A stretch of 64,000 nucleotides of DNA from Streptomyces sp. NA02950 (lineage in GTDB: Bacteria; Actinomycetota; Actinomycetes; Streptomycetales; Streptomycetaceae), in NCBI RefSeq assembly GCF_013364155.1, contig NZ_CP054916.1, positions 2,045,001 through 2,109,000 on the forward strand, read 5' to 3'. The position numbers and the translations under genes were made by a program. Below are positions 10,936-60,207 of the stretch, piece after piece; within the stretch, counting starts at the first letter, position 1; each line of letters begins with the position of its first letter. Below the pieces are notes generated by a model. That model worked only from the letters and a program-made list of their open reading frames with translations. It had not been told where the DNA came from and ran no database searches.

Positions 10936-12456
10936 TCAGCGGTTGTTGTCGACGCAGACCCGGGCCAGCACCGACACACAGTCCTTCGCGCTGTCGTCGG
11001 ACGAGGCGGTGGGCTTGGCCGTCGGCTCGTCGGTCGGCTTGGCCGTCGGCTCCTCGGTCGGCTCCTCGGTCGGTTCGTCGCTTGGCGTGGCGCTCTCGCT
11101 CGGGGTGCCACTGGGCTCTCCGGACCGGGTCGGCTCCGACGTACCACCGTCGGTCGGGTCATCCGTCGGGTGGCCGGTCGGCGGGGAGGACGGATCGGAC
11201 GGCTCGCCCGGAGAAGACGAAGCCGACGAACCGGGTGAAGTCGGCTGTGACGAGGGCGAAGAGGACGGCGCGGCGGAGGACGACGCCGGCCCGGAAGGAG
11301 ACACCGCGCTCGACGGCACGTCCGACGGTGACCGCCCCGTGGACGGCCGGTTCCGGGACGCCTCCCGCGCGGCCTCCGACCGCAGGTCGTCCGAGGTCCG
11401 CGGGGACGTACCGGAGGTCTCCGACGAACCCGACGACGCGGATGAATCGCCCCCATCGGAGGGCACCCCGGCACCGCCCGGATCCGACGGCGCCGATGCC
11501 GCCGCGGGCTGTCCCGGCCCCGCCTGGTCGGCGTCGGTCAGGGCCAGCCCGGCCGCGACCGCCGCACTCGCCACGAGCAGCACACCGACACCGGCCACGG
11601 TGGCCGCGACCGGCCCGGCCTGGCGCACCTGCCCCCGCATCAGATGGCGCACCGAACGCCGGGCGGACACCAGCGTGCCGCCCGCGGCCGCCGCGTGCGC
11701 ACCGCCGAGCGGCAGGGTGCGGGTGGCCGTACCCACCGCCGTCGCGCCGACGGCGGTGGCGGCGAGCGGCACCAGCCACTTCGCCGTCCCCCGGTCCAGC
11801 AGCGCCAGCAGCGCCGGTCCGGTGAGCGCGGGCAGCCGGTCGTCGGCCGCCACCATCCGCTCCATCCGGCTCCGGCAGTCCTGGCAGCCCTCGATGTGCA
11901 CGGCTATCTGCTCGGCCTGGTGGGGGGTGTCGACACCCTGCACATGCGCGGGCATCCGCTCCCAGTGCGCACCGCACGCCGCGCTCGCCGGGGCGCCCGG
12001 CTGGGCACGCAGATACTCCTGGCGCAGGCTCTCACGGGCCCGTTCGACCAGCGCGGCGGCGCCGTCGGCGTGGGTGCCGAGACGGCGGGCCACGCCCTCC
12101 GGCGACAGCCCGTCCACCTCCGCGTGCCACAGCGCGGTCACCCATCGCTGCGGCAGCTCACCCAGGACGTCCACCAGCGGCTCGAGGTACGAACCGCGCT
12201 GCGGCGGCCCCCAGCTCGCGGCCGCGGCGGAGAGCCCGCGCACGGCGCCGGTGAGTTCGGCCGGTACCGCGTCGGCACCGATCGGCTGCCCGGTCCGCAG
12301 CCGCCGCCACACCCGGTAACGGGCCTCGGCGACGAGGTCGCCGGCGGTCCAGGGATTACCGGTGAGGGTGCGGGCGTACGCGACGAGACGCGGGTATTCG
12401 GCTTCGTAGAGACGGCTGTAGGCGGCCGCGTCGAGCGCCGCGGGACCTTGGTGCAT
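10936..12456 (-). CDS. ECF sigma factor fused to a zinc-finger anti-sigma-like membrane domain
   Basis: 506 residues. Residues about 1-165 resemble sigma-70 regions 2 and 4 (YSRLYEAEYPRLVAYARTLT, then a region-4-like LPQRWVTALWHAEVDGLSPEGVARRLGTH). Residues about 180-225 hold an anti-sigma zinc-binding motif, HIEGCQDC (H-x3-C-x2-C). One membrane segment (VAATVAGVGVLLVASAAVAA) follows near 300, then a roughly 180-residue Ser/Pro/Thr/Glu-rich tail with PTEEP and PTAKP repeats that would lie outside the cell, ending in a Cys-containing CVSVLARVCVDNN. The N-terminus could be a tethered, self-inhibited sigma factor. Related fused ECF groups are known in actinobacteria; the signal and targets are unknown. 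Confidence 0.75.
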   Translation of the reverse strand: MHQGPAALDAAAYSRLYEAEYPRLVAYARTLTGNPWTAGDLVAEARYRVWRRLRTGQPIGADAVPAELTGAVRGLSAAAASWGPPQRGSYLEPLVDVLGELPQRWVTALWHAEVDGLSPEGVARRLGTHADGAAALVERARESLRQEYLRAQPGAPASAACGAHWERMPAHVQGVDTPHQAEQIAVHIEGCQDCRSRMERMVAADDRLPALTGPALLALLDRGTAKWLVPLAATAVGATAVGTATRTLPLGGAHAAAAGGTLVSARRSVRHLMRGQVRQAGPVAATVAGVGVLLVASAAVAAGLALTDADQAGPGQPAAASAPSDPGGAGVPSDGGDSSASSGSSETSGTSPRTSDDLRSEAAREASRNRPSTGRSPSDVPSSAVSPSGPASSSAAPSSSPSSQPTSPGSSASSSPGEPSDPSSPPTGHPTDDPTDGGTSEPTRSGEPSGTPSESATPSDEPTEEPTEEPTAKPTDEPTAKPTASSDDSAKDCVSVLARVCVDNNR

Positions 12457-12581
12457 GGTGGAACAACCCCTGGGGTGGTGCCTCGTCGGCGGCGGAGTTT
12501 TGTAACAGCTCCGCACGGCGCCCGAGACCGGGCATGGTTTTCGCAAGCCTAAATGCCCTATGTCCCCTCGAAAAATCAGTC

Positions 12582-12595
12582 GTGACACACGTCAC
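12582..12595. promoter_or_regulatory. Crp-like palindrome GTG-N6-GTCAC
   Basis: The sequence matches the reported Streptomyces coelicolor Crp motif GTG-N6-GNCAC. It lies between the divergent sigma/anti-sigma gene (126 bp away) and the SsgD-like gene (91 bp away). Assignment rests on the motif alone. Confidence 0.4.
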
Positions 12596-12685
12596 AGCAA
12601 CCATGGGTGCACTGGCCTGATCGCCCGTACGTCTTAACGGACGTAAGCGAGGCGAGGACCCGCACCGATCACAAGGGAGCCGGCG

Positions 12686-13105
12686 TTGTCCACAGTCATC
12701 GACCAAGCCGTTCAGGCCCACCTCATCGCGTCGACGCCCGAGGCACGCGCCATCCCGGCCTGTCTGCGCTACGAGCCCGACGACCCGTACGCCGTCCGCA
12801 TCTCCTTCCCGCCCTCCGCCTCCCTCGACGGGTCCGCGGTGGAGTGGACGTTCGGGCGCGAGCTGCTCGCGGCCGGGCTGCGCGGGCCCGCGGGGAACGG
12901 CGATGTGCAGATGTGGCCGTGCGGTCCGCAGCGCACGGTGCTGGAGTTCCACGCGCCCGAGGGCATGGCCATGGTCCAGTTCGACACCGGGGACCTGCTC
13001 AGATTCCTCGGCCGTTCGTACACCGTGGTCCCCGAGGGCAGCGAGAGCGGACAGCTGGACCTGGACGACGGTCTGGCGTCGCTGCTGGGGGACGCTCCCG
13101 CCTGA
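12686..13105 (+). CDS. ssgD: SsgA-like sporulation/cell division protein, SsgD-like
   Basis: 139 residues from a TTG preceded by GGGAG. SALP hallmarks are the RYEPDDPYAVRISF strand, VEWTFGRELLAAGL, GDVQMWPC and the C-terminal LDLDDGLASLL. SALPs are unique to sporulating actinomycetes and direct septum placement or cell-wall remodelling. The opening STVIDQ and the LEFHAPEGMA segment resemble SsgD more than SsgA or SsgB. SsgD in S. coelicolor, as I recall it, lies in the same general chromosomal region as a FadA/FadB pair, which fits this window. Confidence 0.8.
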   Translation: MSTVIDQAVQAHLIASTPEARAIPACLRYEPDDPYAVRISFPPSASLDGSAVEWTFGRELLAAGLRGPAGNGDVQMWPCGPQRTVLEFHAPEGMAMVQFDTGDLLRFLGRSYTVVPEGSESGQLDLDDGLASLLGDAPA

Positions 13106-54636: not shown

Positions 54637-55527
54637 TCATCCCGTCCGCACCGCGCTGTGGACGGTCTGGGCGCTCAGCACGAACACATCGGGCCGCCGC
54701 ATGATCCCGGCCGGGTCGCCGGGGTCGAGCAGCCGGTCCAGCGCGACGAGGTCGCCGTCGGCCAGCAGATCGGCGGCGGCCTCGCGCCGGTGGCCCAGTT
54801 CGGCCAGGAGCCAGCGGCGGGCCGGGAGGTCCAGCGGGGCGGGCAGATCGAGGAGGAAGGTACGGCTCGTGGCCCCGTCGAGACCGGCCTCGGTCAGCAT
54901 CGCGGGCCAGTCGTCGATCGTCTCCACCGAGTCCGGCAGCGACTCCCGCATCTCGGCGAACATCTCCCTGTTGACCACCTCGAGCCGGGCCAGCAGACCG
55001 GGCCGCCCGAGCCCCGTGTGGTACGGCAGACAGTTCAGCGGCAGCCCGCCCTCGGCCAGGGCCAGCACTCCCCCGGGGCGCACCAGCCGGGCGAGCTCGC
55101 GGACCGCCCCCCGCTGGTCGCCCAGGTGGTGCACGGTCTTGCTGGACCAGATCAGATCCGCCTCGCCCAGTGCCCCGAGATCGCCGGGCAGTTCGGCGAA
55201 CCGGGTGGTCACCCGGTCGGCGAGGCCCAGCCGCGCGGCACGCTCCCGGGTCCGCTCCAGCAATTCCGGAGTGCCGTCCACCGCGACCACCTCGGCCTCC
55301 GGGAAGAGCTCGGCGAGCAGACAGGTGACCACCCCGGGGCCGCTGCCGACATCGAGGATCCGGTGCACGGCCCGGCCGGTCCGTCCGTCCAGCCACTCCG
55401 CGGCCTGGCGGTGGACCGGGCCGTTCAGCTCGGCACCCTGCTCCAGGAGCGGACCGAGGACGTTCCAGTCGAGATCGGTGTGGTGATGTCCCTGGGTGTG
55501 GGCGTGCGCGCCCTGGTGTCCGGTCAT
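54637..55527 (-). CDS. Class I SAM-dependent methyltransferase with His-rich N-terminus
   Basis: 296 residues. An unusual His-rich start (GHQGAHAHTQGHHHTDLDWN) precedes motif I ILDVGSGPGVVTCLLAEL near 58 and motif II VVAVDGTPELLERT. The LIWSSKTVHHLGDQRGAVRE block is typical of methyltransferase type 12/25. Substrate unknown; the His stretch might bind metal. Divergent from sigK across 195 bp. Confidence 0.86.
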   Translation of the reverse strand: MTGHQGAHAHTQGHHHTDLDWNVLGPLLEQGAELNGPVHRQAAEWLDGRTGRAVHRILDVGSGPGVVTCLLAELFPEAEVVAVDGTPELLERTRERAARLGLADRVTTRFAELPGDLGALGEADLIWSSKTVHHLGDQRGAVRELARLVRPGGVLALAEGGLPLNCLPYHTGLGRPGLLARLEVVNREMFAEMRESLPDSVETIDDWPAMLTEAGLDGATSRTFLLDLPAPLDLPARRWLLAELGHRREAAADLLADGDLVALDRLLDPGDPAGIMRRPDVFVLSAQTVHSAVRTG

Positions 55528-55585: not shown

Positions 55586-55643
55586 TTCCCCGGTCCGCGC
55601 CGCTGCCTGCCCGTCTTCCTGCGCATCTTCGGAGCAGCTTCAC

Positions 55644-55670
55644 CAATCCACGCCCTTCCGCGCCACGAAT
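55644..55670 (+). promoter_or_regulatory. SigK-type promoter of the sigK-rskA-phr operon
   Basis: CAATCC at 55644-55649, a 16-nt spacer and CGAAT at 55666-55670, 52 bp before the sigK start. It resembles the mycobacterial SigK promoter as I recall it (CCATCC and CGAAT) and recurs exactly upstream of cfa. Confidence 0.65.
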
Positions 55671-55722
55671 GAGGTACGACACGTGCGTGTGCGCCGCATC
55701 GCTCATCCCGGAAGGACGGCCT

Positions 55723-56307
55723 GTGAGAGAACCCGTGTACATCGGCGGACCGGCCGCCCGCGGCCCGGCCCTCGAGGAGTTGCTCCACATGGTGGCCCGG
55801 GGGGACCAGAACGCGTTCGCGGCCCTGTACGACGCCGTCAGCGGGCCCGTCCTCGGGCTGACCCGCAGTCTGCTGCGCGACCCCGCGCAGGCCGAGGAGG
55901 TCACCCAGGAGGTGCTGGTCGAGGTGTGGCGGACGGCGGCGCGGTTCGAGCCGGGGCGGGGCAGCGCCATGGGGTGGATCATGACGCTGGCGCACCGGCG
56001 CGCGGTGGACCGGGTACGGTCCGCGCAGGCCGCGTCCGACCGCGAGGCACGCGCCGCGCTGCTCGCCCGCACCCCCGCGTTCGACGAGGTGACCGAGCAG
56101 GTGGAGGCCAGGCTGGAACGGGAGCAGGTGCGCCGCTGCATGCGGACGCTGACCGAGCTGCAACGGCAGTCGGTGACGCTCGCCTACTACCGGGGCCGTA
56201 CCTACCGCGAGGTGGCGGAGCTGCTGTCGCTGCCGCTGGGGACCGTGAAGACCAGACTCCGGGACGGGCTCATCCGGCTCCGGGACTGCATGGGGGTCGG
56301 GGCATGA
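55723..56307 (+). CDS. sigK: ECF RNA polymerase sigma factor SigK
   Basis: 194 residues from GTG 55723 after GAAGGA. Region 2 includes ALYDAVSGPVLGLTRSLLRD and EEVTQEVLVEVWRTAARFEP; region 4 is LTELQRQSVTLAYYRGRTYR then EVAELLSLPLGTVKTRLRDG. The immediately overlapping RskA-type anti-sigma gene identifies it as the SigK (ECF19) group. An upstream CAATCC-N16-CGAAT element suggests autoregulation. The photolyase gene follows on the same transcript. Confidence 0.9.
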   Translation: MREPVYIGGPAARGPALEELLHMVARGDQNAFAALYDAVSGPVLGLTRSLLRDPAQAEEVTQEVLVEVWRTAARFEPGRGSAMGWIMTLAHRRAVDRVRSAQAASDREARAALLARTPAFDEVTEQVEARLEREQVRRCMRTLTELQRQSVTLAYYRGRTYREVAELLSLPLGTVKTRLRDGLIRLRDCMGVGA

Positions 56308-57122
56308 CCAGAGCCGATCTGCACACCTTGACGGGGGCGTACGCGGTGCACGCGCTGTCGGGCCGGGAGCTGGAGGAGTTCGAGCGCCATCTCGCGGTGT
56401 GCGAGGCGTGCGCCCAGGAGGTGGGGGAGCTGCGGGAGACCGCCGGACGGCTGGCGGTGGCCAGCTCGCTGACGCCGTCCCCGCTGATGAAGGACGAGGT
56501 GATGCGGCGGATCGCCACGGTCCGTCAGGAGCCGCCGCGGGTGGCGGCCCATGACGGCCGCGACGACCGGCGGACCCAGGAGGGCCGTTCCGGCGCCCGC
56601 GAGTCCCATGCCGGACCCCGGCGGCGCGGTGGGCGCCGCCGGGGCCTCGACTACGCCCTGGCGGCCTGTCTGGCCGGGGCCACCGCGCTCGGCGGGGCCG
56701 CGGTGTGGCAGTACCGGCAGGCGTCCGACGCCCGGGACACCGCGGGCCGCGCCGAGCGGCGGGTCGCGGAGGTGGAGGAGCTGGCCCGGGTACTGGCCGC
56801 GCCGGACGCCCGTACCCGCAGCGGCAGGCTGACGGACGGGGCGACGGGCGCGGTCGTGGTCTCCCGCGGCCTTGACCGGGCGGCGTTCCTCGCCTCCGGA
56901 CTGCCCGAGCCGCCCTCGGGCCGGGTCTACCAGCTGTGGTTCAGCGACGGGGGCACGATGCGCTCGGCGGGGCTGCTGCACACCAAGGACGGTGGCACGG
57001 CGACCCTGCTGCACGGGCCGGTCGGACAGGCGTCGGCCATGGGGCTCACCGTGGAGCCCGCCGGGGGTTCGAAGGCACCGACGACCGACCCGGTCGCGCT
57101 GATGACGTTCCCCTCGGGCTGA
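56304..57122 (+). CDS. rskA: Anti-sigma-K factor RskA
   Basis: 272 residues. N-terminal anti-sigma domain with zinc-type HLAVCEAC (H-x3-C-x2-C) near residue 30, one membrane helix (YALAACLAGATALGGAAVW) near 118, a short coiled-coil-like segment (AERRVAEVEELARVLAAP) and the external RskA domain (PPSGRVYQLWFSDGG, SAGLLHTKDGG). Overlaps sigK by ATGA. It holds SigK at the membrane until regulated proteolysis or redox change releases it. Confidence 0.92.
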   Translation: MTRADLHTLTGAYAVHALSGRELEEFERHLAVCEACAQEVGELRETAGRLAVASSLTPSPLMKDEVMRRIATVRQEPPRVAAHDGRDDRRTQEGRSGARESHAGPRRRGGRRRGLDYALAACLAGATALGGAAVWQYRQASDARDTAGRAERRVAEVEELARVLAAPDARTRSGRLTDGATGAVVVSRGLDRAAFLASGLPEPPSGRVYQLWFSDGGTMRSAGLLHTKDGGTATLLHGPVGQASAMGLTVEPAGGSKAPTTDPVALMTFPSG

Positions 57123-57141
57123 GCCGGTGTAAACGAACAGG

Positions 57142-58518
57142 GTGACCTCTTCGATCGCCGTCTTCACCTCCGATCTGCGGCTGTGTGACAACCCCGTGCT
57201 CCATGCCGCCCTCCGCGCCGCCGACCAGGTCGTTCCGCTGTTCATGGTGGACCGCGCACTGGCCCGCACGGGGTTCGCCGCCCCCAACCGGGTGGCGTTC
57301 CTGGCGGACGCCCTGGCCGATCTGGACGCGGGGCTGCGCAAACGCGGGGGCCGTCTGGTCCTCCGTAAGGGTGATCCGGTGGCGGAGATCCGCCGGGTGG
57401 CGGCACAGGCGGACGCCGCGGAGGTCCATATCGCGGGCGGGGTGAGCGGCTACGCGGGGCGGCGCGAGGCGCGGCTGCGCGAGGCGCTGGCCGCGGACGG
57501 GCGGACCCTGCGGGTGCACGGCGCGGTGGTGACGGCGGTCGAACCGGGCGAGGTGGTCCCGGCGGGCAGGGACCACTTCGCCGTGTTCACCCCGTACTTC
57601 CGCGCCTGGCAGCGGATCGAGCCGCGCCGGGCGCTGGCCGCCCCGCGCACCGTGCCGATGCCGGGGCTGTCGGGCTTGCGCTCCGAACCGCTGTCCGCGG
57701 TGGCCTCGCTCGCCCCGGGCACCCCCTCGCCCGGACTGCCCGAGGGGGGCGAGACCGCCGGGCGCCGCCGGTTCCACGCCTGGCGGCGGTCGGGGCTCGA
57801 CGGTTACGCCGACGACCACGACGACCTGGCGGGCGACGCCACCTCCCGGCTCTCCCCGTATCTCCACTTCGGCTGTCTGTCCGCGGCGGAACTGGTGTGC
57901 CGGGCACGGGAGGCGGGCGGTGCGGGCGCCGAGGCGTTCGTCCGGCAGCTCGCCTGGCGCGACTTCCACCACCAGGTGCTCGCCGCCCGCCCGGACGCCG
58001 CCCACACCGACTACCGCCCCCGCCACGACCGGTGGCGCGCCGATGACGCGGAGATCGCCGCCTGGAAAGCGGGCCGCACCGGCTATCCGCTGGTCGACGC
58101 CGGGATGCGGCAGCTCGGCCACGAGGGCTGGATGCACAACCGGGCCCGACTGCTGGTGGCCGGCTTCCTCACCAAGACGCTGTACACGGACTGGCGGATC
58201 GGCGCCCGGCACTTCCTGGACCTGCTGGTGGACGGCGACATGGCGAACAACCAGCTCAACTGGCAGTGGGTGGCGGGCACCGGTACCGACACCCGCCCCA
58301 ACCGTGTGTTCAACCCGCTCGCCCAGGCCAGGCGCTTCGACCCGGACGGCTCGTATGTGCGCCGCTGGGTCCCGGAACTGGCCGGAGTGGCGGGCCCGCG
58401 CGTCCACACCCCCTGGCGCCTCCCGGAAGCCGAGCGCTCCCGTCTGGACTACCCCGACCCCATCGTCGACCTGCAAGCGGGCCTGAACCGCTTCACACGT
58501 GCCCGGGGCCGCGGCTGA
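57142..58518 (+). CDS. phr: Deoxyribodipyrimidine photolyase
   Basis: 458 residues from GTG 57142. N-terminal photolyase alpha/beta domain (FTSDLRLCDNPVLHAALR), then the FAD-binding domain: SRLSPYLHFGCLSAAEL near 233, RQLAWRDFHHQVL near 272, GYPLVDAGMRQLGHEGWMHN near 314, and NNQLNWQWVAGTGTD near 371. The Trp residues of the electron-transfer chain are present. Repairs UV-induced cyclobutane dimers using blue light. Only 19 bp follow rskA, so it is cotranscribed with sigK. Confidence 0.93.
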   Translation: MTSSIAVFTSDLRLCDNPVLHAALRAADQVVPLFMVDRALARTGFAAPNRVAFLADALADLDAGLRKRGGRLVLRKGDPVAEIRRVAAQADAAEVHIAGGVSGYAGRREARLREALAADGRTLRVHGAVVTAVEPGEVVPAGRDHFAVFTPYFRAWQRIEPRRALAAPRTVPMPGLSGLRSEPLSAVASLAPGTPSPGLPEGGETAGRRRFHAWRRSGLDGYADDHDDLAGDATSRLSPYLHFGCLSAAELVCRAREAGGAGAEAFVRQLAWRDFHHQVLAARPDAAHTDYRPRHDRWRADDAEIAAWKAGRTGYPLVDAGMRQLGHEGWMHNRARLLVAGFLTKTLYTDWRIGARHFLDLLVDGDMANNQLNWQWVAGTGTDTRPNRVFNPLAQARRFDPDGSYVRRWVPELAGVAGPRVHTPWRLPEAERSRLDYPDPIVDLQAGLNRFTRARGRG

Positions 58519-58526
58519 CGTCCCGT

Positions 58527-58541
58527 CGGGGCTCCGCCCCG
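58527..58541. terminator. Hairpin between convergent phr and cfa
   Basis: CGGGGC-TCC-GCCCCG in the 39 bp between the two stop codons; usable from both sides. Confidence 0.5.
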
Positions 58542-58557
58542 CGCTCCGGCCCGGCGG

Positions 58558-59790
58558 TCAGACCGGCACCGCCGGGTACCAGGACTCGGGGGTGACCGGC
58601 ATGCAGCTGACGCCGCGGTCGGTGGGGCGGACCGCGAGGATCTGGTCGATGCCCATCCGGCCCTCCTCCAGGGCGAGGGCCGCACCGGCGAGCCACAGGT
58701 GCCGGCCGCGGGCGGTGGCCTCGCCCACCAGGCGGCGGAAGCCGTCCCAGTCGGCCTCCAGGGTGGTGCGCCAGGCGGTGACCGTGCGAACGTAGTGCTC
58801 GCGCAGCGACTCCGAGGCACGCACCTCGAGTCCGGCCGCTTCCAGACGGCCAATGGTCTCGCCGAGCGGGCGCATCCGCAGCTGGGGGGCGAGGTACGCG
58901 GCGAGCGGCGGCCCCGCGTCGGCCCCCGGGGACGGGCGGGAGATCTGCTGGACCAGGGCCCGGCCGCCGGGGCGGAGCATCCGGTGCAGGGTGCGGACGA
59001 GGTCCGGGTACTGCTCGTCGCCGACGTACTCGCCCGTCTCGACGCAGGCGACGGCCTCGTACTGGCCGCCCCGCAGAGCGCGGTAGTCGCACAGGTCGAC
59101 GTCGATCCGGTGGTCCAGGCCGAGTTCGCGGACCCGCTCGGCCAGCAGGTCGTGCTCCTCGCGGACCGTGGTGACGGCGGTGACCTGCGCGCCGTAGCGG
59201 TCGGCGGCGTGCAGGGCGAGGGCTCCCCAGCCGCAGCCGATGTCCAGCAGCCGGGCGCCGGGCACCAGGTTCAGCTTGCGGCAGATGACGTCCAGCTTGT
59301 CGCGCTGGGCGTCGGCGAGCCGGTACGCGGGGTCCTCGCTGGTCCAGTAGGCGCAGGACTGAGCCATGGACGGGTCCAGCAGCCGTTCATGGAACTCGGC
59401 CGTGGCATCCGGGCCCCCGGGGGCCGCGCGGGCGGGCGGCCAGGGGCCGAGGGCGCCGAGCCGGGCGGCGGTGGCGGCGGCTCTGGCCCGGGTGGTCAGG
59501 GCGGGTCCGGATGGCGGCGCGGGACGCCCGCGTACCGCGTGCCACACGGCGCGCAGGCCCTCGGTGACGTCGCCCTCGACATCGAGGTCACCGCTGATGT
59601 ACGCCTCGGCGAGGCCGTATCCGGTGGGCCGCCACACCAGCCCGCGCAGCGCCCGCCGGGAGCGCAGCCGCACCCGGGGCGCCCCCGGCGGCCCCGCCTC
59701 GCTGCCGTCCCAGGCGCACAGCCGCACCGGAAGCGGGGCGCCGAGCAGGCGCTCGGCGAAGGGGACGAGGGCAGCGGCCACGTCGCTCAT
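58558..59790 (-). CDS. cfa: Cyclopropane-fatty-acyl-phospholipid synthase (Cfa-type)
   Basis: 410 residues. The N-terminal lipid-binding part contains YGLAEAYISGDLDVEGDVTE; the SAM domain has motif I RLLDIGCGWGALALHAADRY near 188, QSCAYWTSEDPAYRLADAQ near 148 (the CFA substrate/SAM signature) and VETGEYVGDEQYPD near 262, where canonical enzymes have VEMxEHVG. It adds a methylene group to unsaturated phospholipid chains. AGGAGG precedes ATG 59790. An exact copy of the sigK promoter motif lies 73 bp upstream. Convergent with phr. Confidence 0.88.
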   Translation of the reverse strand: MSDVAAALVPFAERLLGAPLPVRLCAWDGSEAGPPGAPRVRLRSRRALRGLVWRPTGYGLAEAYISGDLDVEGDVTEGLRAVWHAVRGRPAPPSGPALTTRARAAATAARLGALGPWPPARAAPGGPDATAEFHERLLDPSMAQSCAYWTSEDPAYRLADAQRDKLDVICRKLNLVPGARLLDIGCGWGALALHAADRYGAQVTAVTTVREEHDLLAERVRELGLDHRIDVDLCDYRALRGGQYEAVACVETGEYVGDEQYPDLVRTLHRMLRPGGRALVQQISRPSPGADAGPPLAAYLAPQLRMRPLGETIGRLEAAGLEVRASESLREHYVRTVTAWRTTLEADWDGFRRLVGEATARGRHLWLAGAALALEEGRMGIDQILAVRPTDRGVSCMPVTPESWYPAVPV

Positions 59791-59862
59791 CGGTCTGCCT
59801 CCTGAAGCAGAGCCGCCGGCGTCCTCACTCCGCCGCACGGCCACCGGTATCTTCCGGGAGGT

Positions 59863-59889
59863 ATTCGGGGCCGTCCGGGCGGCGGATTG
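59863..59889 (-). promoter_or_regulatory. SigK-type promoter of cfa
   Basis: On the minus strand CAATCC, a 16-nt spacer and CGAAT, the same as before sigK; both are also preceded by C. It begins just after the end of the upstream pterin dehydratase gene. Confidence 0.65.
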
Positions 59890-59895
59890 GTCACC

Positions 59896-60207
59896 TCACA
59901 CGTCGCGTGCGCCGTGCTCCCTGGCCGCGGCCTCGATGCGGCGCGCGAGCCCGAAGTCCAGCTCGGTCACCTTGCCGCCCACGCTGTGGGTGTTCACCGT
60001 GACGCCGACCGTGTTGTACCCGAGCGTCAGATCGGAGTGGTGGCCCAGCTCCTCCTGGATCCGGGCGATCTCCGCGACCAGTCCGGCCGCCCGCGGATGA
60101 CCGTCGAGGACATAGCGGCGCGAGAGCCGGTCGTCGGCGTAGGACCAGCCGGAAAGCGGTTCGAGGCGGTCCTCGATCTCCTGCTGGCCGAGCGGCTCGA
60201 CTGCCAT
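59896..60207 (-). CDS. Pterin-4a-carbinolamine dehydratase
   Basis: 103 residues, the single-domain PCD/DCoH fold. The active-site motif is EELGHHSDLTLGYNTVGVTV (His-His then Asn/Thr) near residue 52, followed by THSVGGKVTELDFGLARRI. It dehydrates 4a-hydroxytetrahydropterin to recycle tetrahydrobiopterin-type cofactors. AAGGGATG precedes ATG 60207. It is directly upstream of cfa on the same strand but the cfa promoter lies between them. Confidence 0.92.
   Translation of the reverse strand: MAVEPLGQQEIEDRLEPLSGWSYADDRLSRRYVLDGHPRAAGLVAEIARIQEELGHHSDLTLGYNTVGVTVNTHSVGGKVTELDFGLARRIEAAAREHGARDV

Follow-up and report, generated by a model that had tools for sequence, protein, structure and literature searches.

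A probable SigK-RskA regulon with photolyase and Cfa-family genes in Streptomyces sp. NA02950 and its fuller form in relatives

Introduction

The SigK-RskA pair of mycobacteria and the sigmaE-ChrR pair of Rhodobacter are the closest described counterparts of the system treated here, a sigK-rskA-phr gene cluster and a nearby cfa gene in Streptomyces sp. NA02950 (NZ_CP054916.1, positions 2,045,001–2,109,000; this stretch of 64,000 nucleotides is called the window below, and published work is cited from excerpts of the articles). In mycobacteria, SigK control has been described for the UfaA1 locus, which is of the Cfa type, and for MPB70/83 (PMC10540498); control of a Cfa-type gene at the SigK locus is therefore not new. 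Veyrier 2008 is credited in PMC7509140 with an mpt83-sigK-rskA cassette that has a conserved SigK site; the same article calls the signal that activates SigK-RskA unknown, and the biological role of the SigK regulon has been described as little understood (PMC5547695).

The core sigmaE-ChrR regulon includes rpoE-chrR and furan-lipid genes, the latter being required for ChrR turnover by singlet oxygen (PMC6852236), and in R. sphaeroides exposed to singlet oxygen, phrA and cfaS are direct targets of activation by RpoE (PMC7074977). Furan fatty acids require both UfaO, which carries DUF1365, and UfaD, a desaturase predicted to bind NAD/FAD (PMC7380195). The literature searched, as far as its excerpts reach, describes no SigK-controlled photolyase, no anatomy of a Streptomyces SigK regulon and no link between SigK and furan lipids, and an earlier mention in Veyrier 2008 or Dufour 2008 is possible.

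Results

Two SigK-type promoter sequences in the window and the genome

The initial annotation read the window as a SigK-RskA unit with a photolyase gene and a second SigK-type promoter before cfa, and this is supported by the sequence and by conservation of the motif in relatives. The features concerned are as follows.

55642–55670, plus strand: putative SigK-type promoter of sigK-rskA-phr, ACCAATCC-N16-CGAAT, conserved upstream of sigK in relatives
55723–56307, plus strand: sigK, extracytoplasmic function (ECF) sigma factor, 194 amino acids, GTG start; PRK09646 match with both regulatory cysteines
56304–57122, plus strand: rskA, membrane anti-sigma factor, 272 amino acids, RskA_C; its start overlaps the sigK stop
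57142–58518, plus strand: phr, class I photolyase, 458 amino acids, DNA_photolyase and FAD_binding_7
58558–59790, minus strand: cfa, CMAS-family methyltransferase of the Cfa2 subtype, 410 amino acids from the ATG at 59790, CMAS domain
59863–59891, minus strand: putative SigK-type promoter of cfa with the same elements, probably a former operon promoter (amine oxidase-DUF1365-Cfa-Cfa-DUF1295)

The pattern CAATCC-N16-CGAAT matched the window twice, exactly in both cases, at 55644–55670 on the plus strand and 59863–59889 on the minus strand, and occurred in none of 100 dinucleotide shuffles of the window. The whole 9.77-Mb genome contained the same two matches only, one before sigK and one before cfa, and the reversed control gave none; both the placement of the two copies and the low expectation of chance copies, as initially proposed, thus hold. 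Read two bases further, both sites are ACCAATCC-N16-CGAAT, and no other site in the window, at any other of its genes either, came within two mismatches of this extended motif. The CGAAT element lies 52 bases from the sigK GTG (55723), as first counted, and 72 bases from the probable cfa ATG (59790, with GGAGG ahead of it), one base fewer than the 73 first given. The two promoters had also been called identical, which is true of both elements and of the spacing, but not of the 16 spacer bases, which differ between the sigK and cfa sites.

SigK, RskA and the photolyase

The gene calls of SigK, RskA, a photolyase and a Cfa-family protein were borne out by the PRK09646, RskA_C, photolyase and CMAS profiles. 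SigK scored 291.8 bits against NCBIfam PRK09646, above the curated threshold of 226, and its best match in the PDB was M. tuberculosis SigK (4NQW), with both cysteines aligned; it is the only SigK-family match at 1e-40 in the genome. RskA scored 99.9 bits for RskA_C, 27.3 for zf-HC2 and 25.7 for RskA_N, the last slightly below the cut-off of 27, and its hydropathy profile revealed one weakly hydrophobic segment near residue 117 (Kyte-Doolittle 1.49). The C-terminal domain is RskA_C, with no cupin match in the Pfam search, and the N-terminal domain holds a zinc-finger-like HX3CX2C that is kept in RskA of 80 of the 81 loci examined. Compared by eye, the N terminus, HTLTGAYAVHAL, is near the consensus HTLAGAYALDAL quoted in PMC7406223 for AS19-1, the anti-sigma group that contains M. 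tuberculosis RskA. The photolyase carries DNA_photolyase (125.9 bits) and FAD_binding_7 (243.1 bits), has E. coli photolyase (1DNP) as its nearest solved structure by sequence, and scored 284.8 against TIGR03556 (8-HDF), below the cut-off of 884.6; phr is the sole FAD_binding_7 (PF03441) gene found in the genome.

Conservation of the motif in relatives

The check suggested with the initial annotation, namely conservation of the motif at sigK and cfa orthologues, was run; the motif is conserved, and the idea survived. From 451 stretches encoding a SigK relative in named genomes, the best 80 were kept (Streptomyces and close kin; L033–L112). These 80 loci, 1.20 Mb together, held 163 sites of a slightly degenerate motif, compared with one for the reversed pattern. 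Where at least 300 bases ahead of a gene were available, a site was present upstream of sigK in 74 of 79 cases, of the amine oxidase gene in 32 of 39 and of the molybdopterin oxidoreductase gene in 28 of 33, and the spacer was 16 bases long in 133 of these 134 sites. Eleven of the remaining sites stood before other mapped genes, and 18 had no assignable mapped gene; 13 of these 18 are plus-strand sites close to where the fetched sequence ends, the position at which one would expect the outward member of the divergent pair.

A second sample, 61 Streptomyces genomes drawn evenly, was searched with the strict motif ACCMATCC-N16-CGAAT, which gave 82 matches versus one in the control. A SigK-family gene was found in 47 of the genomes, and 80 of the 82 strict sites were in those 47, the remaining two being in the 14 genomes that have none. 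Per genome, at least one strict site was present in 40 of the 47 with a SigK-family gene and in 2 of the 14 without. SigK genes lay within 12 kb of 47 of the 82 sites, with 18 sites directly upstream of sigK and 15 divergent beside a SigK gene. Since the 61 genomes are related, no p-value is given. Across 34 loci from more distant members of the phylum, picked by hand (L163–L196), a looser site (C[AC]ATCC, spacer 15–17, CGAA) occurred 28 times in all, versus none for the reversed pattern, and four of the five fasciclin genes there had such a site within 500 bases.

A fuller regulon in relatives and its probable reduction in the window's lineage

The fuller loci have sigK-rskA, with or without phr, and next to it, on the opposite strand, DUF1295, two CMAS methyltransferase genes (one in some loci), DUF1365 and an amine oxidase gene. 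Beyond the amine oxidase gene stands a minus-strand site, and back to back with it a second site before a molybdopterin oxidoreductase-fasciclin operon (the protein labels come from Pfam on one or two examples per protein). Behind the motif in L033–L112, the fasciclin gene is usually paired with one for an Oxidored_molyb (PF00174) protein. Of 73 loci, 37 have phr downstream of rskA, no more than 1.2 kb away. DUF1365 was found in 20 of the 61 Streptomyces genomes, within 15 kb of SigK in 17 of them; SigK was present in 19 of these 20 genomes versus 28 of the other 41.

Searches of the whole window genome for DUF1365 and for a fasciclin (MPT70/83-like) gene found neither, the latter standing behind the motif in relatives. 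The window cfa belongs to the second methyltransferase subtype of the fuller operon, and its promoter is 8 bases from the match to the neighboring gene.

59896–60207, minus strand: pterin-4a-carbinolamine dehydratase, the landmark bounding the cfa promoter in relatives, probably outside the regulon

In the relative L044, the whole lipid operon is kept, with the operon promoter (one mismatch) 37 bases from the dehydratase gene, and the methyltransferase gene equivalent to the window cfa (11600–12920) is split over two frames. In L043, a copy of this promoter with one mismatch (at about 11003) is still there, but no such gene stands behind it. The split gene and the promoter without a gene are signs of recent decay of the lipid operon. 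The window, L033 and L034 all have an uninterrupted cfa frame and a perfect promoter.

The simplest reading is that the front part of the operon was deleted and the old promoter left before one methyltransferase gene, a direction of loss that we infer from these loci. The window cfa promoter would then probably be the old lipid-operon promoter, and the regulon of phr and cfa is probably the pruned remainder of an older, larger regulon shared with mycobacteria. The output first proposed, photolyase plus Cfa, stands insofar as both have SigK-type promoters, but it looks like a leftover; a two-gene regulon as the original design is unlikely, because relatives have the longer operon at the same place.

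A doubtful cyclopropane product

The cfa product has a CMAS domain (183.7 bits), retains the motifs of the S-adenosylmethionine (SAM) site, and has the cyclopropane fatty acid (CFA) synthase 5Z9O as its nearest solved structure by sequence. Where E. coli CFA synthase (6BQC) and 7QOS read LLHTIG, it reads LVQQIS. The histidine of LLHTIG, which we take to be the bicarbonate ligand (His266 in E. coli), is replaced by glutamine in all 20 compared sequences, which cover both Cfa subtypes, and is kept, as judged by eye, at the same place in the genome's best CMAS match at 5.62 Mb. Because this key histidine is replaced, the cyclopropane lipid synthesis initially assigned to the gene is doubtful, and "cyclopropane synthase" would here be the label of a family, not of a product. 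Among three species, the ratio of nonsynonymous to synonymous substitution rates (dN/dS) was 0.34–0.37 for cfa, 0.01–0.04 for sigK, 0.21–0.31 for rskA and phr, and 0.48–0.72 for the dehydratase gene; judged from these ratios, cfa is under moderate purifying selection.

Further targets, SigK paralogues and a neighboring gene

With one mismatch allowed, the extended motif was found at five additional places in the genome. Three of them are copies of one sequence, of which the copy checked (L005) lies inside a long reading frame, and a fourth (L009) is inside a reading frame; these were dropped. Only the fifth (L008, at 7.27 Mb), which stands before a gene, was kept.

About 7,271,149–7,272,677 of G000:C1 (L008, 3–1529): DUF4331 gene with ACCAAGCC-N16-CGAAT 28 bases upstream

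In one relative (L223 of genome G055), an exact site is located 28 bases before the gene for an 84% identical DUF4331 protein, and the DUF4331 gene is probably a third SigK target.

A clear gene was behind 15 of 20 fetched motif sites from the 61-genome sample, the products being molybdopterin oxidoreductase, DUF4331, hydrolase-like, CHRD-like, anti-sigma-like and small secreted-type proteins (some labels by eye). No clear target gene was seen at the other five of the 20 (L222, L232, L233, L234 and L239), nor at L160 and L162.

Other Streptomyces have a second SigK-RskA type (L144, L145, L147, L150, L151, L240 and L241) that is back to back with a DUF4331 gene, with sites of the CCAATCC or CCCATCC type between the pair and that gene. 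The motif (3002 on the plus strand or 6999 on the minus strand) also lies about 50–105 bases before a small anti-sigma-like protein in L143, L146, L148, L149 and L152; the small protein of L143 has a zf-HC2 match, and these five loci are away from any strong SigK match. In the window itself, one more gene is back to back with the sigK promoter.

54637–55527, minus strand: class I SAM methyltransferase (Pfam), divergent from sigK, with no SigK-type site of its own

Discussion

A probable reduced SigK-RskA regulon and the observations that weigh on it

The best explanation of the whole, and one that we hold to be likely, is that the window contains a reduced, autoregulated SigK-RskA regulon with a likely photo-oxidative or lipid-peroxidation signal. 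Judging from the sequence, SigK-RskA very probably turns on its own genes, phr and cfa through matching promoters. RskA in the membrane would hold SigK until some signal releases it, and SigK with RNA polymerase would read the ACCAATCC-N16-CGAAT promoters. Transcription of sigK-rskA-phr would provide positive feedback, the regulon's own brake and photolyase, while the Cfa2-type methyltransferase gene, and probably the DUF4331 gene at 7.27 Mb, would be transcribed too. In many related Streptomyces, the same sites would serve a furan-fatty-acid-type operon (UfaD-like, DUF1365/UfaO, two CMAS and DUF1295) and the molybdopterin oxidoreductase-fasciclin operon; the window's lineage would have lost DUF1365 and fasciclin, and the old operon promoter would now stand before the surviving methyltransferase gene. 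Photo-oxidative or lipid-peroxidation stress would be the likely signal.

A number of observations count against this explanation. The 80-locus sample, being the best of 451 relatives, leans to close kin, and 36 of 73 loci do not have phr after rskA. No site as tested was present at 5 of the 79 sigK genes (L068, L073, L104, L109 and L112), 7 of the 39 amine oxidase genes (L044, L046, L085, L091, L109, L110 and L112) and 5 of the 33 molybdopterin oxidoreductase genes (L047, L050, L063, L075 and L076); at the amine oxidase genes of L044, L046, L091 and L110, the variant ACCAAACC or ACCAAGCC is present instead. Seven of the 47 SigK-carrying genomes have no strict site: four of them (G002, G003, G031 and G034) contain CCAATCC-CGAAT with at most one mismatch upstream of sigK (spacer 17 in G003), and in G004, G013 and G042 the upstream region is 3–4 mismatches away, no better than random stretches. 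Among the 34 distant loci, the looser site was within 1 kb upstream of sigK in only 18 and absent in 16, a photolyase match was found in none, and the search gave no site ahead of the row amine oxidase-DUF1365-Cfa-DUF1295-SigK-RskA of L165. L035–L039 and L042 are without cfa and its promoter at this place, the best candidates having 4–6 mismatches, as random stretches do; in L036, phr is also absent at the locus, and the stretches of L040 and L041 end before the cfa place. Paralogous SigK genes adjoin the same motif, and the motif alone therefore names no single sigma factor. Moreover, a 2-aminoimidazole with a link to envelope stress induces the SigK regulon of M. tuberculosis (PMC5547695).

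The signal and other explanations

As to the signal, the photo-oxidative reading is plausible, with chances of about one half. Light induces mpk83 and mpk70 but not dipZ in M. kansasii, the induction being weaker than that of the carotenoid and photolyase genes; the M. tuberculosis counterparts of mpk83 and mpk70 are SigK targets, and the excerpt of the M. kansasii table lists no sigK (PMC9861118). RskA of Nesterenkonia is lowered by UV-B (PMC8965627).

The regulon could also be real and respond to general envelope or thiol-redox stress through RskA and a disulphide in SigK, with light repair being incidental, a possibility that we take seriously but hold to be doubtful. The cysteine pair equivalent to Cys133/Cys183 is present in the window SigK and in SigK of all 81 loci, and replacement of these cysteines abolishes activation of M. 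tuberculosis SigK (PMC7509140). The near-constant HX3CX2C of RskA, the induction by the envelope-stress-linked compound and the loci without phr beside rskA are consistent with such a signal, whereas the gene content of the relatives (photolyase, UfaD/UfaO-like and Cfa) resembles a singlet-oxygen regulon, and a SigK-like pair is induced by singlet oxygen in R. capsulatus (PMC7074977).

We consider it unlikely that cfa is a passenger in decay, left over from the old operon, whose transcription from the SigK promoter continues but yields no useful product. The loss of DUF1365 and fasciclin from the genome, the absence of cfa in L035–L039 and L042, the promoter without genes in L043, the two-frame copy in L044 and a dN/dS above those of sigK, rskA and phr would all suit a passenger. 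The same dN/dS is, however, far under 1 and lower than in the adjoining dehydratase gene, the SAM-site motifs are kept, and the frame is open and the promoter perfect in the window, L033 and L034.

It is improbable that another sigma factor reads the two sites, or that phr is mainly under a light regulator of the LitR/LitS type with SigK as a mere neighbor. LitR-type light control occurs in Streptomyces, and SigK-family paralogues in the genus share the motif; against this, the genome has a single SigK-family match at 1e-40, nearly all strict sites (80 of 82) come from genomes that carry a SigK-family gene, 18 of them standing immediately before sigK itself. Chance resemblance is ruled out by the empty shuffles and reversed genome control and by the 163 sites versus one in relatives.

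A tentative wider view is that SigK-RskA is the actinobacterial counterpart of sigmaE-ChrR, in which the ancestral regulon would make furan fatty acids and photolyase, furan lipids would sense singlet oxygen and trigger SigK release, and the mycobacterial MPT70/MPT83 regulon would be a later derivative; we regard this as possible rather than probable. If it is true, Streptomyces with the full operon would make furan fatty acids, and the window species, having lost DUF1365/UfaO, would run the switch without that loop. The gene content in Streptomyces offers a concrete and cheap hypothesis for the SigK-RskA signal, singlet oxygen or lipid photo-oxidation, under which a regulon known mainly for two mycobacterial antigens would be recast as part of an old light-damage response. 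It also hints that furan fatty acids may be produced by some Streptomyces; the window would also be a compact example of a regulon pruned with its promoters kept.

Comparison with known systems

With the mycobacterial SigK-RskA system the window shares a SigK with both cysteines, an adjacent RskA and a Cfa-type gene at the sigK locus (PMC10540498, PMC7509140), and the autoregulation of the mycobacterial pair would have a predicted counterpart in the window; a fasciclin like MPB70/83 is present in Streptomyces relatives, but not in the window genome. It differs in the photolyase gene of the sigK operon, no photolyase being named in the excerpts of mycobacterial SigK-regulon descriptions examined, and in the lack of fasciclin and DUF1365 in the genome; in Streptomyces relatives, a molybdopterin oxidoreductase is added.

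The RpoE-ChrR pair of R. capsulatus is induced by singlet oxygen, is nearer to M. tuberculosis SigK-RskA than to R. sphaeroides RpoE-ChrR, and lies beside an operon with the cryptochrome/photolyase CryB (PMC7074977). Unlike the present system, it belongs to a proteobacterium and has other targets, and homologues of RSP_1087-1091 are reported absent. The MerR/ChrR blue-light response of V. cholerae, in which photolyase-family genes and a putative CFA synthase are light-induced (PMC5241685), uses other regulators and is an analogy of output only.

Like R. sphaeroides sigmaE-ChrR (ECF11), the window would place a photolyase and a Cfa/UfaM-type methyltransferase under one ECF sigma factor, and in Streptomyces relatives UfaD-like and UfaO (DUF1365) genes would join them. 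It has a SigK-type sigma factor and a membrane anti-sigma factor with RskA_C, as against a cytoplasmic cupin-type protein, and the window genome, without DUF1365, lacks this part of the furan-fatty-acid gene set. The two anti-sigma factors, initially described as unrelated, are not simply so, both having class I anti-sigma domains (PMC7406223), and HX3CX2C is nearly constant in RskA of the loci examined. The parallel with Rhodobacter, in turn, is stronger than first stated, because relatives carry behind the same motif DUF1365 and an FAD-binding amine oxidase that is UfaD-like, a likeness taken from the domain description and gene order rather than from an alignment. Since DUF1365 is the domain of UfaO, the ancestral output appears to have been nearer to the Rhodobacter sigmaE-ChrR regulon than the initial annotation saw.

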